A program made the position numbers and the translations under genes. Below are positions 500 through 8,415 of a stretch of DNA of 64,000 bases, piece by piece. This stretch comes from Catenulispora sp. MAP5-51. GTDB taxonomy: Bacteria > Actinomycetota > Actinomycetes > Streptomycetales > Catenulisporaceae. The stretch covers positions 62,001 to 126,000 of the forward strand of contig NZ_JBGCCH010000009.1 of assembly GCF_041261205.1 (NCBI RefSeq), written 5' to 3'. The notes under the pieces are model-generated. The model was not told the origin of the DNA. It saw nothing but the letters and a program-made list of their open reading frames with translations, and ran no database searches. Within the stretch, counting starts at the first letter, position 1; each line of letters opens with the position of its first letter.

Positions 500-2152
500 T
501 CAGTGCCCGAGCATCATCGAGACCAGCTTGACCGCCACCAGCACCGTGGCCACCGCCAGGTAGGTCCGCAGGACGGCCAGCCCGACGCGCGTCCCGGCCG
601 AGAACCGCACCTGCCCGAGCTCCTTCAGCGGCGGCGTCCGCCAGTCGTCGCGTCCCGAGCGGTCGACGGCCACGGCCCCTGACACCCGGCCGGCTCGCAG
701 GGCCTTGACGCCCAGCCAGCCGCCGAACGCCAGCGCGACCAGCAGGCAGCCGGCGAGGATCGCCTCGATCTGCCCGGCGGTGATGTTCTGGTCCAGGACC
801 GAGCCGGTCAGCACCAGCGACAGCGCCACCAGAACCGCGATCACACCGCCGGTGAACACGGTGGTCTTGCGGCTGTTGACCCAGGGCCCGAGGACTTCCT
901 TGTCCACGCACAGCAGCAGCAGGTACACCGAGGCCGAGGGCAGCAGCACGCCGGCCAGCGCCTGGACCCCGACGGTCAGCACGCCCTGCACGTGGTCGCT
1001 GGCCACCAGCACGATGGTCGCGGCGAAGGCGATGATGCCGGCGTAGACCGCGTAGAAGCCCTTGGCCTGCTTCACGCCGCGGTGCAGGGAGTGGTTGATC
1101 TTCAGGCAGTCGCCCATCGCGTAGGCGGTGGACAGCGAGACCGCGAAGGCGCCGATGATCGAGGCGTCCAGCAGGGCCACCGCGAACATGTCGCCCAGGA
1201 CCCGGCCGCCGTAGACGGTCAGGCCGCGCGCCACGTCGGCGGCGTCGGTGAAGGAGCCGCCCAGGTGGGCCGCGGCCACCGCGCCCAGGCCGATCGTCGC
1301 CGCCGCGCCGACCACGACCACCACGATGCCCAGGCCCAGGTCGGCCTTCTCGTACTTCATGAAGCGCGGGGTGATGCGCTTGTCGATGACGTAGCTCTGC
1401 TGGAAGAACAGCTGCCAGGGCGCGACCGTGGTGCCCACGATGCCGATCACGACCAGCATCACGGTGGCCATCTGGCCCGAGCCGCCGGGCAGGACCGGGG
1501 TGACGAAGCCGTGCGCCATGGTGCCGGCGCTCGGGTGCGCCATGATCGAGATCGGGATCAGCAGCAGCGAGCCCACGCACAGCGTCAGCGCGATCCGCTC
1601 GAACCGCTGGAACGACCCGCTCATCGCGGCCGCCACGATGACCAGCGCGGCCATGATGACCGACGGCACCTTCGGCAGGCCCAGGTAGCTGGTCGCCAGC
1701 GTGATGCCGATGAATTCGGTGACCAGTGTCAGGGCATTGAGGATGAAGAGGTCGATGACGCTGAACGCGCCCCAGAACTTCCCGAAGCGCTCGAAGATGA
1801 GCCGGGCGTGCCCGACGCCGGTGACGGCGCCCAGGCGCAGCACCATCTCCTGGTTCACGTACAGGACCGGGACCAGCAGCAGGAGCGTCCACAGCAGCTT
1901 GGTGCCGTAGTCGTGGCCGGCCTGGCCGTAGGTCGCGAAGGCGCCGGCGTCGTTGTCGCCGACCATCACGATCAGCCCGGGGCCGACGATCGCCAGCAGG
2001 GTCTTGAGCTTGGCCGACAGGCCGGTGCGAGCGTCGTGGTCGCCGAGCTTGATGGTGCCGAACGCACCTTTGATGTCGCCGACGTGTGCGTCGTCAAGCA
2101 CTGCGCCGTGGTGCGTCTCGCGGATTTCGCTGTTCAGCGTGGCCGTGGTCAT
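500..2152 (-). CDS. NRAMP-family divalent metal transporter, probably the Mg2+-type (NRMT-like)
   Basis: This 550-residue protein has about 11 hydrophobic segments and the SLC11/NRAMP fold signature GPGLIVMVGD in the first helix. The family metal-site motif DPGN reads D68-A-G-A71 here, and the Met-Pro-His motif of helix 6 reads A244-P-W. The aspartate is kept, but the Asn and Met ligands that suit Mn2+/Fe2+ are lost. From what I recall of NRAMP-related magnesium transporters, such changes mark that branch. The M-box riboswitch in the leader independently supports magnesium as substrate. The start is an ATG preceded by GGGGGTG. The N-terminus of about 45 residues is polar and longer than in canonical members. 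Confidence 0.85.
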   Translation of the reverse strand: MTTATLNSEIRETHHGAVLDDAHVGDIKGAFGTIKLGDHDARTGLSAKLKTLLAIVGPGLIVMVGDNDAGAFATYGQAGHDYGTKLLWTLLLLVPVLYVNQEMVLRLGAVTGVGHARLIFERFGKFWGAFSVIDLFILNALTLVTEFIGITLATSYLGLPKVPSVIMAALVIVAAAMSGSFQRFERIALTLCVGSLLLIPISIMAHPSAGTMAHGFVTPVLPGGSGQMATVMLVVIGIVGTTVAPWQLFFQQSYVIDKRITPRFMKYEKADLGLGIVVVVVGAAATIGLGAVAAAHLGGSFTDAADVARGLTVYGGRVLGDMFAVALLDASIIGAFAVSLSTAYAMGDCLKINHSLHRGVKQAKGFYAVYAGIIAFAATIVLVASDHVQGVLTVGVQALAGVLLPSASVYLLLLCVDKEVLGPWVNSRKTTVFTGGVIAVLVALSLVLTGSVLDQNITAGQIEAILAGCLLVALAFGGWLGVKALRAGRVSGAVAVDRSGRDDWRTPPLKELGQVRFSAGTRVGLAVLRTYLAVATVLVAVKLVSMMLGH

Positions 2153-2524
2153 GGGAACACCCCCTGCTGCCGAGTAGGAGCGGCTGGTCGGGTGGCACGC
2201 GTCTGCCCCGCCGGCAGCGGTGGGGCCTGGTCGGGCCCCGGTGCGGCCGGGTGGTGGCAGAGATCTGGTGCGGGTTAACGCGCGCCGAGGAAAGGACGGT
2301 GGGCTGGGTTGTGCGCGATGAGGGGCCGACTGTGGCCCGACCTACTACCGGATTTCATCGCCAACCACCTCCCTGCCCGCCGCGGCGCCGCGGCGCCTGT
2401 GTCTTGCCCGGATCCGCCTTCGCGGCGGATCGGTCCTACTCGACACCTCGGGGAGGAATACCCGGGAGGGTCAGCGGCAGCCGCCATTCCACGGCAAAGC
2501 CACGACCAAGTCCCGGCCACCTCT
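2153..2524 (-). other. Long 5' leader between riboswitch and NRAMP-type gene
   Basis: About 370 bases separate the M-box aptamer from the transporter start codon. I see no convincing gene in it. Read on the minus strand it contains an 8-bp perfect hairpin with a 5-base loop (2411-2431) and a 14-base self-complementary GC block (2384-2397), either of which could serve as the switching part of the riboswitch. The open frames here have neither a supported start nor recognisable protein sequence. Confidence 0.5.
2411..2431 (-). terminator. Hairpin in riboswitch leader, possible attenuator
   Basis: On the minus strand GATCCGCC pairs perfectly with GGCGGATC around a GCGAA loop. It lies about 95 bases past the aptamer and before the transporter gene. 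No U-tract follows, which is common for actinobacterial terminators, so its role in premature termination is an inference. Confidence 0.4.
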
Positions 2525-2675
2525 CTCGTCAGAGCTTCGGCACTTCACGGCGTAGCGTCAGCTGCGCAGCCACTTGGGATCACCCCTTAAGCCGAGGAGA
2601 TCTGTCCTGATCCGGAGGGTCTCTCGACCGATGGGATCAGTGGCCTTTGTCCGTGAAGACGCCTCACCGAACGAG
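2525..2675 (-). promoter_or_regulatory. M-box (ykoK-type) magnesium riboswitch
   Basis: On the minus strand the RNA shows conserved M-box blocks in order: CUCGUUCGGUGAGGCG, GGCCACUGAUCCC, GGUCGAGAGACC, CUUAAGGGGUGAUCCCAAGUGG, GCCGUGAAGUGCCGAAGCUCU. It is closed by P1, with 2670-2675 (CUCGUU) pairing 2525-2530 (GACGAG). Spacing and order match the Rfam M-box layout as I know it. It senses Mg2+ and normally lowers expression of transporters when Mg2+ is plentiful. The only gene downstream on this strand is the NRAMP-type transporter. Confidence 0.93.
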
Positions 2676-2918
2676 GTGTCCTAACGGAAACAAAGGATCC
2701 TCTCGGGACGCGGGGCGTGTCAACTCGCCTCGTCACAGGTGGGTAACGATATGGCAACGGCGGCAACTTAATGGAGGGTGCCTCGCGTTTGCGGGTATCA
2801 GTGTTTACCTGTTGTGTGCTGGTGCGATCCGTCTGTGGGGTCCGGGAGCCGGATTTATTACAAACCCCGGGAGCGGCGCCGACGCTGTGTCTCGGGACGC
2901 CCCGCATAGCATGCAAGG

Positions 2919-3476
2919 ATGTTTAGAGAGCCGATCACTACGGCGCGCTTGGTGCTGAAACCCTTAGCGGAGTCCGACGCCGACGATATGGCGGGGGTAC
3001 TTGCTGCCCCTGAGCTCTATACGTTCATCGGAGGAGAGCCGCCGACGGTCGAGGGTCTGCGGGCCCGCTATGCGCGGCTGGCGGTAGGGCGTTCGCCCGA
3101 CGGTTCGCAAGAATGGGTGAACTGGATCGCCCGGCGCGTGGAGGACGGCGCGGCGGTCGGCACCGTGCAGGCGACGGTCGTCGACGACGGCGCGCGCGCC
3201 GACGTGGCGTGGGTGGTCGGCGCGGCGTGGCAGGGCCGCGGATACGCCGTCGAGGCGGCGTCGGCGCTGGTCGCCTGGCTGCGGGAGCGGGGCGTGGCGG
3301 AGATCGGCGCGAACATCCACCCCGGGCACGCGGCCTCGGCGCGGGTCGCCGAGCGGATCGGCCTGGCCCCGACCGGGGAGCTCGACGACGAGGGCGAGCA
3401 GATCTGGCGCGCGCAGGCGGGCACGCCGGGAGAGAAGCTGGACGAGGAACCCGAACGGACGGAGAAGACCCGGTGA
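2919..3476 (+). CDS. GNAT family N-acetyltransferase
   Basis: This 185-residue protein has the layout of RimJ/RimL-like acetyltransferases: TARLVLKPL at the N-terminus, a central beta-sheet region, and the acetyl-CoA pyrophosphate loop in GAAWQGRGYAVEAA (about residues 101-114). A HPGHAASARVAERIGL segment follows, matching the late GNAT helix that starts with a conserved Asn/His and ends at the substrate side. The last 25 residues are charged and probably disordered. Its stop overlaps the GTG start of methionine aminopeptidase (GTGA), so the two are translationally coupled. The acceptor substrate is unknown. A protein N-terminus would fit the neighbour but is only a guess. Confidence 0.85.
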   Translation: MFREPITTARLVLKPLAESDADDMAGVLAAPELYTFIGGEPPTVEGLRARYARLAVGRSPDGSQEWVNWIARRVEDGAAVGTVQATVVDDGARADVAWVVGAAWQGRGYAVEAASALVAWLRERGVAEIGANIHPGHAASARVAERIGLAPTGELDDEGEQIWRAQAGTPGEKLDEEPERTEKTR

Positions 3477-5692: not shown

Positions 5693-5711
5693 CGGTTGAG
5701 AGGTGGGTGCC

Positions 5712-6725
5712 GTGACGGCCCAGGCCAGGACGCAGGACGCGGCGGCAGCCGTGCCGGAGCTTCAGGAGCGCTTCGACGGGCTGATCGCCGCCGACGAGCG
5801 GATCGAGCCGCGGGACTGGATGCCCGAGGCCTACCGCAAGACGCTGGTGCGCCAGATCGCGCAGCACGCGCACTCCGAGATCATCGGGATGCAGCCGGAG
5901 GGCACCTGGATCACCCGGGCCCCCTCGCTGCGGCGCAAGGCGATCCTGCTGGCGAAGGTGCAGGACGAGGCCGGGCACGGCCTCTACCTCTACGCGGCGG
6001 CCGAGACCCTCGGCGTGGACCGCGCCGACCTGCTCGACGCGCTGCACACCGGCCGCCAGAAGTACTCCTCGATCTTCAACTACCCCACCCTGACCTGGGC
6101 CGACATCGGCGCCATCGGGTGGCTGGTGGACGGCGCGGCGATCATCAACCAGATCCCGCTCCAGCGCTGCTCCTACGGCCCCTACGCGCGGGCCATGGTG
6201 CGCATCTGCAAGGAGGAGTCCTTCCACCAGCGCCAGGGCTTCGAACTCCTGTACGACCTCGCGCACGGCACGCCCGAGCAGCACGCGATGGCCCAGGACG
6301 CGCTGGACCGCTGGTGGTGGCCCTCGCTGATGATGTTCGGCCCGCCGGACGCCGAGTCCTCGCACTCCGCGCAGTCCATGGCCTGGCGCATCAAGCGGCA
6401 CTCCAACGACGAGCTGCGCCAGCGCTTCGTCGACATCAGCGTCCCGCAGGCCGAGGCGCTGGGCCTGACCATCCCGGACCCGGACCTGCGGTGGAACGAG
6501 GAGCGCGGGCACCACGACTTCGGCGTGATCGACTGGACCGAGTTCCAGGAGATCCTCGCCGGCAACGGACCGTGCAACCGGCAGCGCGTCGCGACGCGCG
6601 TGCAGGCGCACGAGGACGGCGAATGGGTACGGCAGGCGGCGTTGGCATACGCGGCCAAGCACAGTAACGGTGAGCACAGTGACGGCAAGCACAGTGACGG
6701 CGAGAGGAACGTGGCGGCGGCATGA
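5712..6725 (+). CDS. paaA: 1,2-phenylacetyl-CoA epoxidase, catalytic subunit PaaA
   Basis: PaaA is the di-iron oxygenase subunit that epoxidises the aromatic ring of phenylacetyl-CoA with O2. The ferritin-like helices carry the metal-binding signatures [10 protein letters not shown] and [31 protein letters not shown] near the N-terminus is strongly typical of PaaA. I prefer the GTG at 5712, with GAGAGGTGG 7 bases upstream, over the GTG at 5703. The C-terminus has an odd tail of three similar HSxGxx units ending in ERNVAAA, not part of the fold. The stop overlaps the paaB ATG. It is the first gene of paaABCDE. Confidence 0.95.
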
Positions 6726-7006
6726 GTAGCGGTCTGCCTCTGTGGGAGGTCTTCATCCGCGGGCGGCGTGGGCTGTCGCATCAGCACGTCGGGAGCGTGC
6801 ACGCGTCGGACGCGGAGATGGCGCTGCGCAATGCGCGGGATCTCTATACGCGGCGCGGCGAAGGCGTCTCCATCTGGGTCGTCCCGGCCGCCGCGGTCTC
6901 CGCGTCCTCCCCGGACGAGAAGGAGCCGTTCTTCGACCCGGCCGCGGACAAGGTGTACCGGCATCCGACGTTCTACCGGATCCCGGAAGGCGTGAAGAAC
7001 CTGTGA
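6722..7006 (+). CDS. paaB: Phenylacetyl-CoA epoxidase subunit PaaB
   Basis: PaaB is a small, 94-residue structural subunit of the multicomponent epoxidase, needed to join PaaA-PaaC units. The protein starts [20 protein letters not shown] and contains the family stretch [19 protein letters not shown], followed by a conserved aromatic end ([14 protein letters not shown]). Both ends overlap neighbours (ATGA with paaA, GTGA with paaC), so the three subunits are translated in a coupled way. Confidence 0.95.
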
Positions 7007-7773
7007 CCGCCGTCACGGAATCCACTCCGTTGGTCGCGAAGTACGCGCTCCAGCTGGGCGACGACGCGCTGATCCTGTCGCACCGGCTGTCGGAGTGGTG
7101 CTCGCACTCCCCGGAGCTGGAGGAGGACGTCGCGCTGGCGAACCTCGCCCTGGACCTGCTGGGCCAGGCGCGGACGCTGCTGACGTACGCGGGCTCGCTG
7201 GAGGGCGCCGGGCGCTCCGAGGACGACCTGGCGTTCCTGCGCACGGAGCGGGACTTCCGCAACGTGCTGCTGGTGGAGCAGCCCAACGGCGACTTCGCGG
7301 TGACGATCGCCCGGCAGCTGTACTTCGCGACGTACCAGAGCGAGCTGTACGCCGCCCTGTGCGCCTCGACGGACCCCGAACTGGCCGCACTCGCCGCGAA
7401 GGCGGTGAAGGAGGTCGCGTACCACCGCGACCACGCGGTGCAGTGGACACTTCGCCTCGGCGACGGCACCGAGGAGAGCCACCGCCGGATGCAGGCGGCG
7501 CTGGACCAGCTGTGGCCGTACACGGCGGAGCTGTTCGCGTCGGACCCGGTGGTGGCGGCCCTGGCGGAGAGCGGTGTCGCGGTGGACCCGCGCACGCTGC
7601 GGCCCGCCTGGGAGGCGGCGGTGGCCGGCGTGGTCGAGGCCGCGACGCTGGCGATGCCGACCGACGGCTGGCAGCCGCGCGGCGGGCGCGAGGGGCGGCA
7701 CGGCGAGGGGTTCGGGTTGCTGCTGGGAGAGATGCAGGCTCTGCATCGGCAGTATCCCGGGGCTAGCTGGTAG
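7003..7773 (+). CDS. paaC: Phenylacetyl-CoA epoxidase subunit PaaC
   Basis: PaaC is the non-catalytic ferritin-like partner that forms the heterodimer with PaaA. The 256-residue protein has the family helices LGDDALILSHRLSEWCSHSPELEEDVALAN (given here as one block with positions about 17-46) and VAYHRDHAVQWTLRLGDGT. The true start is the GTG at 7003, which overlaps the paaB stop. The frame is open further upstream only as a shadow of paaB. The last helix ends LHRQYPGASW, as in other PaaC proteins. Confidence 0.93.
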   Translation: MTAVTESTPLVAKYALQLGDDALILSHRLSEWCSHSPELEEDVALANLALDLLGQARTLLTYAGSLEGAGRSEDDLAFLRTERDFRNVLLVEQPNGDFAVTIARQLYFATYQSELYAALCASTDPELAALAAKAVKEVAYHRDHAVQWTLRLGDGTEESHRRMQAALDQLWPYTAELFASDPVVAALAESGVAVDPRTLRPAWEAAVAGVVEAATLAMPTDGWQPRGGREGRHGEGFGLLLGEMQALHRQYPGASW

Positions 7774-7841
7774 CGAGCTGATTTTCGGATCGGTTCGGTC
7801 CGGTGGCGAACAGTGGCATGAGCGAGGCGGAGGTGGTGACG

Positions 7842-8381
7842 ATGGTGGTCGAGGAGCGTACGGCGCTCGATCTGGCGGAGCTGGAAGCCGCCGCATCAGC
7901 CGTGCCGGATCCGGAGCTGCCCGTGGTGACCCTCGGCGACCTGGGCATCGTCCGCGGCGTGGCGCTGCTCGACGACGGCGCGGTCGAAGTGCGCATCACC
8001 CCGACCTTCGTCGGCTGTCCCGCGACCGAGGCCATCGCCGCGGATGTGCGCGCGGCCGTCGGGGCCCGTGTGTCCGGCACCGAAGTGCGTACGCGCATGG
8101 TCATGTCGCCGCCCTGGTCCACCGACTGGATCAGCGAGGACGGCCGCCGCAAGCTCGCCGAGCACGGCATCGCGCCGCCGAGCGGCCGGGCCCGTGCTGC
8201 TCGTCCCGCCGGTCCGGTCGCGGTGACGATCGGGCTGCGTCGCGAGACCGAAACCCAGACCTGCCCCCATTGCGGCAGCACCGAGACGCGCGAGCTCAGC
8301 GCGTTCGGCAGCACGCCGTGCCAGTCCTTGCGTGCCTGCCGGGCGTGCGGGGAGCCCTTCGGGGCGATGAAGTCCCTTTGA
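7842..8381 (+). CDS. paaD: Phenylacetyl-CoA epoxidase maturation protein PaaD
   Basis: PaaD is a MIP18/DUF59-type protein thought to help assemble metal centres of the epoxidase system. The domain appears as VPDPELPVVTLGDLGIVRGV, with FVGCPATE carrying the conserved Cys. A C-terminal zinc ribbon follows (CPHCG and CRACG separated by about 20 residues). I choose the ATG at 7842 because GGCGGAGGT lies 7 bases upstream. In-frame GTG 7803 and ATG 7818 would add up to 13 residues without better signals. Three copies of AGTCCCTT lie across its stop codon (8370-8404). Confidence 0.9.
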   Translation: MVVEERTALDLAELEAAASAVPDPELPVVTLGDLGIVRGVALLDDGAVEVRITPTFVGCPATEAIAADVRAAVGARVSGTEVRTRMVMSPPWSTDWISEDGRRKLAEHGIAPPSGRARAARPAGPVAVTIGLRRETETQTCPHCGSTETRELSAFGSTPCQSLRACRACGEPFGAMKSL

Positions 8382-8415
8382 TCGAGTCCCTTCTCGAGTC
8401 CCTTGTGAGAGTGCT

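Follow-up and report, generated by a model that had tools for sequence, protein, structure and literature searches.

A complete M-box aptamer ahead of an NRMT-type transporter gene in Catenulispora, with a conserved upstream open reading frame between them

What does a magnesium riboswitch control when the gene behind it belongs to the NRAMP superfamily, and by which route does it reach that gene? The question is raised by a locus of Catenulispora sp. MAP5-51 in the stretch of 64,000 nucleotides analysed here (the window; contig NZ_JBGCCH010000009.1, positions 62,001 to 126,000, numbered from its first letter), for which an earlier note, made from the letters alone, had read an M-box at 2525-2675 on the minus strand upstream of an NRAMP homologue. 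The M-box is a textbook terminator riboswitch. The parts that bear on the first half of the question are as follows.

2695..2723, minus strand: putative promoter, identified by eye, with a −35 box TTGACA (2723-2718) and a −10-like GAGGAT/AGGATC (about 2702-2695), 13 to 41 nt before the aptamer
2514..2682, minus strand: M-box (RF00380) magnesium riboswitch aptamer, from a covariance-model match and fold stability
2158..2166, minus strand: Shine-Dalgarno region of nrmT (CAGGGGGTG), from the sequence
500..2152, minus strand: nrmT, encoding a predicted NRAMP-related magnesium transporter of 550 aa with DAGA in helix 1 and TTVAPW in helix 6, from Pfam, structure matches, alignment and a tree

The whole window was scanned with all Rfam families (cmscan), and RF00380 was the single family above its gathering score, with a match at 2682-2514 on the minus strand that covered model positions 1-169 of 169 at 143.3 bits (cut-off, 44; E = 2.1e-32). 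The M-box is thus confirmed by the kind of covariance scan that had been suggested for it, with true limits of 2514-2682. Every base pair marked in the alignment was standard, those of P1 included, in agreement with the conserved blocks and closed P1 helix described from the letters. Folded alone, the aptamer had a z-score of −2.44 and was equalled in stability by 2 of 200 shuffles. One M-box was found in the 10.9-Mb genome. In a sample of 99 genomes, it was present in all 10 of the genus (source genome counted; 142.5 to 144.4 bits), and was not found in the 4 other members of the family; among the remaining 85 genomes of the order, 2 had one. It was also uncommon in wider samples (24/393 genomes of the class, 28/391 of the order and 38/396 of the phylum), in which stricter filters were applied and some weak matches were lost. 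Unlike the source genome with its one copy, five genomes of the genus had a second M-box together with a second NRMT gene (L014, L015, L017, L018 and L019), the second NRMT copies being 83 to 84% identical over the part compared. Paired M-boxes were also seen elsewhere, divergent in L068 (G448) and L190 and in tandem in L186.

TTGACA and GAGGAT were kept in all 9 same-genus copy-1 loci with upstream sequence (L011 is without such sequence), and on this conservation the transcript probably starts just ahead of the aptamer. A scan with an E. coli-type consensus, in which TATAAT was required, gave no promoter match here. Just 5′ of the −35 box, CGTTACCCACCTGTGACG (2731-2748, minus strand) was conserved with few or no changes across 9 copy-1 loci of the genus, L003 being the most divergent; it is possibly a regulator site or a piece of the divergent gene's promoter. 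The aptamer lies 361 nt from the nrmT start codon on the same strand. Upstream of it, a divergent gene (2919-3476) encodes a GNAT protein, and the open reading frame (ORF) after nrmT, 16 nt away, is convergent (plus strand, ending at 483) and gave no Pfam match, so that no further gene is seen for the switch to control. That the sole controllable gene is an NRAMP homologue, as the earlier note had it, was borne out, with a single NRAMP-superfamily ORF at 2152-500 (minus strand). Phenylacetate degradation genes lie at 5703-8400 of the window (plus strand), a PaaA/PaaC family gene at 5703-6725 being followed by more paa-like ORFs recognized by eye.

We next consider the transporter. Its product matched Pfam PF01566 (Nramp) at 239 bits and stayed below the cut-off of the NCBIfam MntH model PRK00701 (84.8 bits; cut-off, 430); its closest solved relative was EleNRMT (174.7 bits; next, 60.8 bits). 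We aligned it with 80 close relatives and with 27 Pfam matches of the class (those translated out of 50 listed PF01566 matches, with partial, weak and locus-less entries excluded). The window protein and all 80 close relatives carried DAGA in helix 1 and either TTVAPW or TTIAPW in helix 6, and 13 of the 27 Pfam matches carried DPGN with A-x-x-MPH. With DAGA/TTVAPW against DPGN/ATVMPH and an MntH score below cut-off, the product is not a canonical NRAMP/MntH. In a tree, the window protein and EleNRMT fell in one clade (SH-aLRT, 97) and the DPGN-type NRAMPs apart (99); the tree was made by a quick method with 19 of the 80 relatives and is open to long-branch joins, EleNRMT sitting on one long branch. 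According to PMC8806188, NRMTs carry DxxG and TxxA/T and NRAMPs carry DxxN and A/CxxM. The window protein matches TxxA, and its DAGA keeps the Asp and lacks the NRAMP Asn, Ala replacing Gly. By alignment and tree, the product belongs to the NRMT clade rather than to the canonical manganese and iron NRAMPs, and the set marks out a large subclade of NRMTs in which the metal site is altered to DAGA. The earlier reading as an NRAMP homologue accordingly holds for the superfamily (PF01566) and fails for an ordinary NRAMP, since the gene is an NRMT. The magnesium uptake role that it proposed appears to be the best reading of the product and is supported for two independent reasons, namely, the M-box and the protein itself, with its place in one clade with EleNRMT and its altered metal site. 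The genome encodes two CorA proteins above cut-off; the nrmT product is its only NRAMP-family match, and the MgtE membrane domain was not found in the genome. On these comparisons, the locus has a complete M-box right after a conserved promoter-like sequence, followed by an NRMT gene.

This pairing of aptamer and transporter is already known. Among at least 581 NRMT relatives in named genomes, an M-box lay upstream on the same strand for 46 of the best 80, and none was seen in the flanking DNA examined for 34 of the best 80. A 2014 paper (PMC4072509) had already reported NRAMP relatives under M-box control and shown that one of them transports magnesium, so that the pairing is of a known kind, and the surprise that the earlier note implied in a magnesium switch on an NRAMP gene is not new. 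Other arrangements were seen as well. In genomes of the order, an M-box also precedes MgtC, or a gene for an MgtE_N/CBS-domain protein with a second type of NRMT gene behind it. In leader family f2, which we infer to be Streptomycetaceae, a distant NRMT (31 to 34% identical to the window protein) stands farther 3′ of the M-box with one gene between them (L069, L070, L074, L075, L076, L078, L081 and L083). The intervening gene of L069 encodes an MgtE_N and CBS protein in which Pfam did not find the MgtE membrane domain, and five of the distant f2 NRMTs that were checked have the metal site DAAG/TTVSPY. An M-box and an upstream ORF (uORF) precede an MgtC-family gene in three f2 leaders (L064, L072 and L073; Pfam check for L064 and L072). 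NRMT relatives of Burkholderiales, Chromobacteriaceae and Bradyrhizobium (L209, L218, L223, L233 and others) were 57 to 62% identical and had DAGA and no M-box match, and these may reflect transfer with other control. In L241, a metagenome-assembled genome labeled Proteobacteria, an M-box was present before an NRMT relative.

The route from aptamer to gene concerns the remaining leader. Here, the earlier note had stopped at the M-box and the NRAMP-superfamily gene, both of which stand, and had overlooked a uORF and the rest of the leader, whose parts are as follows.

2450..2470, minus strand: C-rich candidate anti-Shine-Dalgarno with two CCTCCC copies, which can pair with the Shine-Dalgarno of the uORF (SD2), from the sequence and a consensus fold
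2365..2373, minus strand: SD2, GGGAGGTGG, strong, from the sequence
2275..2358, minus strand: conserved uORF of 27 codons, MKSGSRSGHSRPLIAHNPAHRPFLGAR, with its stop TAA at 2277-2275, from comparison of leaders
2323..2338, minus strand: GGGCC-ACAGUC-GGCCC hairpin lying in the uORF and belonging to a motif with nucleotide-level conservation, from consensus folds of the own-genus and f2 sets
2248..2326, minus strand: C-rich, G-poor stretch (C/G, 3.1) over the second half of the uORF, a candidate Rho-loading (rut) site, from shuffles
2277..2286, minus strand: 5′ arm of a putative long-range helix, at the uORF stop codon (GGCGCGCGTT), from a pairing test (window alone, P = 0.067 versus shuffles)
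2194..2203, minus strand: 3′ arm of this helix (GACGCGTGCC), 42 nt before the nrmT start codon, from a pairing test

The presence of such a uORF, taken as 15 to 50 codons with a Shine-Dalgarno and a start 50 to 190 nt after the aptamer, was assessed in the leaders of 119 M-box matches (90 of class Actinomycetes and 29 of other classes). It was found in all 10 same-genus copy-1 leaders and in 86 of the 90 class leaders versus 6.9 expected from dinucleotide shuffles of the same leaders; in the 29 leaders of other classes, there were 8 versus 3.3 expected in the same test, an expectation that controls for composition and not for common descent. Among the 86, L079 was judged spurious, its uORF segment being missing, and the curated set of 85 thus left out five of the 90 leaders, the others being L045, L112, L119 and L125. 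These four belong to family f6, which appears to be mainly mycobacterial judging from its PE/PPE genes (one PE gene was Pfam checked) and from PMC12810186; they keep the Shine-Dalgarno and roughly the motif and have no ATG, GTG or TTG, so that the start would be ATT, ACG or CTG (ATT would be needed in two of them). In a second set, partly overlapping in species, a uORF with a Shine-Dalgarno was found in 44 of 46 leaders, including those of Amycolatopsis, Arthrobacter and Sinomonas, and in the other two (L172 and L225), which failed the automatic Shine-Dalgarno rule, an ORF was visible. Across the class, the uORFs are mostly 20 to 30 codons long, with start, Shine-Dalgarno and open frame kept, and they precede NRMT, MgtE-domain, MgtC and PE genes. 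A loose G-[HD]-S-x-P motif recurs close to the N terminus of many peptides (SPGHSRP, SPGDSPYP and NEGHSPR), and three loci of another class (L088, with MESDPGHR, L093 and L087) have MESDPGH or similar in other codons. In four of the five second-copy leaders of the genus, the uORF is a different one (V-D-[SI]-P-S-...) and the upstream region differs as well. By this comparison of leaders, a uORF accompanies nearly all sampled class Actinomycetes M-boxes whatever gene follows, and this part of the leader is new. In a literature search whose coverage excluded most subscription papers, no description of an M-box uORF came up except in mycobacteria, and no experiments on this genus were found in the literature searched.

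A uORF family independent of the M-box was considered and rejected. An 18-base motif of the uORF occurred 23 times in 20 of 391 genomes of the order, versus 8 times for a reversed control pattern, and 21 of the 23 were in known M-box leaders. The match in L149 lies inside a coding gene and is apparently due to chance. In L150 (G587), a uORF-like segment bearing a Shine-Dalgarno occurs with no adjoining M-box match; the only M-box of that genome lies about 1 kb away, and the leader of that M-box (L079) lacks the uORF segment. No convincing case of a free-standing uORF family was found among the 391 genomes.

Between 2000 and 3000, a search of the minus strand gave no terminator-like site. When leaders were searched up to 200 nt from the aptamer, such sites were seen in none of the 15 from the genus (1.0 in shuffles), in 11 of the 90 class leaders (7.4) and in 15 of the 29 leaders of other classes (1.8). 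In a consensus fold of 10 same-genus leaders, the second CCTCCC copy (ACCUCCC in L004) was paired with GGGAGGU, and SD2 was paired in both states of P1. When a consensus was folded for 12 leaders (11 of f2 and the same-genus copy L019), the free 3′ strand of P1 paired with the anti-Shine-Dalgarno, which paired with SD2 when P1 was held. Equilibrium folding of the window leader gave a predicted SD2 accessibility that was unchanged by P1 opening (0.117 held, 0.111 free). Mean accessibility went from 0.125 to 0.255 in the own-genus leaders, not different from shuffled P1 strands (P = 0.64), and from 0.195 to 0.245 in f2, not above shuffled P1 strands (P = 0.28); there was no rise in f17 and f19. 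Only f6 showed a rise that agrees with a switch, from 0.197 to 0.38 (P = 0.0096 versus shuffled P1 strands). The C-rich stretch exceeded shuffles in all 10 same-genus copy-1 leaders (P ≤ 0.01; 100 shuffles each) and, with second copies counted, in 11 of 15 at the 0.05 level; in wider sets it did so in 7 of 29 (f2) and 3 of 38 (f6).

The end of the uORF may also be tied to the gene by the long-range helix. The best partner of this end lay 39 to 45 nt before the gene in 21 of 26 leaders and off this place in L019, L053, L071, L084 and L085. The helix is kept by changing sequences, including the unrelated GCAGCAG/CTGCTGC in paralogue leaders, and arms swapped between leaders never gave as good an average pairing (0/100). 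In aligned columns of structure-blind alignments, 86% of cells paired versus 83% after swapping (0.001), so that the covariation is modest. Taken singly, 12 of the 26 leaders had a helix that beat shuffles at 0.05, and the window missed this level narrowly (0.067). Masking of the uORF stop by a ribosome left the predicted accessibility of the nrmT Shine-Dalgarno unchanged (0.161 and 0.152; P = 0.84).

We propose, with a probability of about 0.72, that the locus encodes a magnesium-responsive OFF switch for a Mg2+ importer, acting on uORF translation and Rho ahead of nrmT. By analogy with the two families, the aptamer would close at ample Mg2+, with P1 formed and the transporter off, and at low Mg2+ P1 would open, the transporter would be made and Mg2+ would be imported. 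The output platform, translational and Rho-dependent in place of an intrinsic terminator, is the less certain part. With P1 closed, SD2 would be sequestered by the C-rich anti-Shine-Dalgarno and no ribosome would read the uORF; Rho could then load on the C-rich stretch in the second half of the uORF and end transcription before nrmT. With P1 open, ribosomes translating the uORF would mask the C-rich stretch and melt the helix between the uORF stop codon and the nrmT leader, upon which nrmT would be transcribed and translated. What is conserved would be uORF translation in cis and not a working peptide.

A small protein acting in magnesium homeostasis, as proposed for Rv1805A of Mycobacterium tuberculosis, is an unlikely alternative. 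The class-wide conservation of start, Shine-Dalgarno, open frame and length speaks for it, as does the recurrence of the G-[HD]-S-x-P-like N-terminal motif, in other codons at the three loci of another class; frame, stop and motif would be kept by a small protein too, which is a counterpoint to selection for translation only. In most groups, substitutions point the other way. Single-base changes in the uORF were fairly even over codon positions, and synonymous changes were tested in six groups covering 66 of the 85 curated rows (one row was in two groups), a test to which a short ORF gives little power. They numbered 7 versus 8.2 expected in the window's own group and 3 versus 3.5, 12 versus 10.3, 14 versus 11.9 and 6 versus 7.9 in four further groups; an excess was found in one group only (15 versus 9.5; P = 0.014), which favors the small protein there, and peptide-level selection was rejected as a general rule. 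Serine codons argue for a constraint on the RNA. AGT was used for 75 of 89 serines in codons 2 to 12 of the f2 uORFs and for 1 of 75 later, and for 34 of 57 and 0 of 18, respectively, in those of the genus, with 0 of 27 in nrmT itself; since the bias is confined to codons 2 to 12, the start-proximal motif seems to be under constraint as RNA. Farther on, the peptides drift and differ widely, with frame and approximate length kept, and the four same-genus paralogue leaders encode another peptide altogether. With no general synonymous excess, selection is probably for translating the uORF and not for its product. A further reading is a nascent chain that senses Mg2+ and makes the ribosome unstable when Mg2+ is low, as MgtL or MgtQ does in enteric bacteria; it was considered because many uORFs open with acidic and proline residues (MSPDDSPYP, MESDPG, MPDD and MDSSPG). 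MgtQ likewise has early Asp, Pro and Glu residues (PMC8092293), and magnesium import is again the function. The window peptide, however, lacks acidic residues throughout and is free of proline up to residue 12, and groups f17 and f18 lack acidic residues near the start; as a general rule the mechanism was rejected, and for this leader we consider it quite improbable.

Two other readings would leave the uORF aside or change the metal. An intrinsic-terminator switch of the textbook kind, with the uORF incidental, would suit the leaders of other classes, about half of which have a terminator-like site within 200 nt, and the 11 of 90 class leaders that have one (7.4 expected). The lack of any such site on the minus strand of the window region and in the 15 own-genus leaders, together with a uORF far more frequent than chance, makes this reading very unlikely here. 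An aptamer retuned to Mn2+ or Fe2+ ahead of an ordinary manganese transporter would accord with membership in the NRAMP superfamily, with the absence of another NRAMP-family match in the genome and with the transport of Mn2+ as well as Mg2+ shown for EleNRMT (PMC8806188). Against it stand a full-length, high-scoring M-box and a protein with the clade and metal site of NRMTs in place of DPGN/ATVMPH, and we regard it as extremely unlikely.

Extended to the class, the proposal is that M-boxes of Actinomycetes share one output stage, in which a gated uORF, via Rho and the stop-codon helix, gates the next magnesium gene (NRMT, MgtE-domain, MgtC or PE/PPE), and that Rv1805A is a member of this cis-acting module and not a dedicated small protein; we give this about even odds. 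The Rv1805A uORF peptide was described in 2026 as specific to mycobacteria (PMC12810186). On leader sequences, a cis-acting role in the switch seems to explain the uORF better than a mycobacterium-specific peptide does. If so, the M-box would have a second, class-wide actinobacterial output stage via translation of a leader ORF, the reported peptide would become a general regulatory part, and Streptomyces and Catenulispora, both harmless inhabitants of soil, could serve as models for dissecting the uORF-type M-box.

Compared with the classic M-box (ykoK; RF00380), such as that of the Bacillus subtilis mgtE leader, the window has the full aptamer at 143.3 bits with all pairs standard, but in its leader no intrinsic terminator was found and a uORF stands in its place. 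As in the window, the Clostridium acetobutylicum nrmT (Ca_c0685) has an M-box before a gene for an NRAMP-related Mg2+ transporter (PMC4072509); that paper places such genes mostly in Clostridia and Deltaproteobacteria, its main text does not contain the word Actinobacteria, and it describes a switch of the intrinsic-terminator type, of which none was found in the window leader. EleNRMT of Eggerthella lenta (PDB 7qia; PMC8806188) falls in the same clade as the window protein (97) and shares T-T-x-A-P-W in helix 6, but it differs in helix 1 (DAGG versus DAGA) and in length (a solved chain of 438 aa versus 550 aa). The closest likeness in the leader is to pe20 of M. tuberculosis, whose M-box, according to reporters, acts on a uORF with Rho-dependent termination (PMC12810186). 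In that leader, transcripts end mainly at a site 5′ of the uORF, and termination may therefore not depend on uORF translation (PMC12810186). The window gene, unlike pe20, is not of the PE/PPE kind, the peptide has another sequence, and there is an extra putative helix between the uORF stop and the gene leader. The two leaders share an M-box followed by a uORF with a strong Shine-Dalgarno, a C-rich anti-Shine-Dalgarno, which in the window is a candidate, and no intrinsic terminator (PMC12810186); the pe20-type trait of a Shine-Dalgarno-bearing uORF between aptamer and gene is thus present here, in the same place as the Rv1805A uORF.
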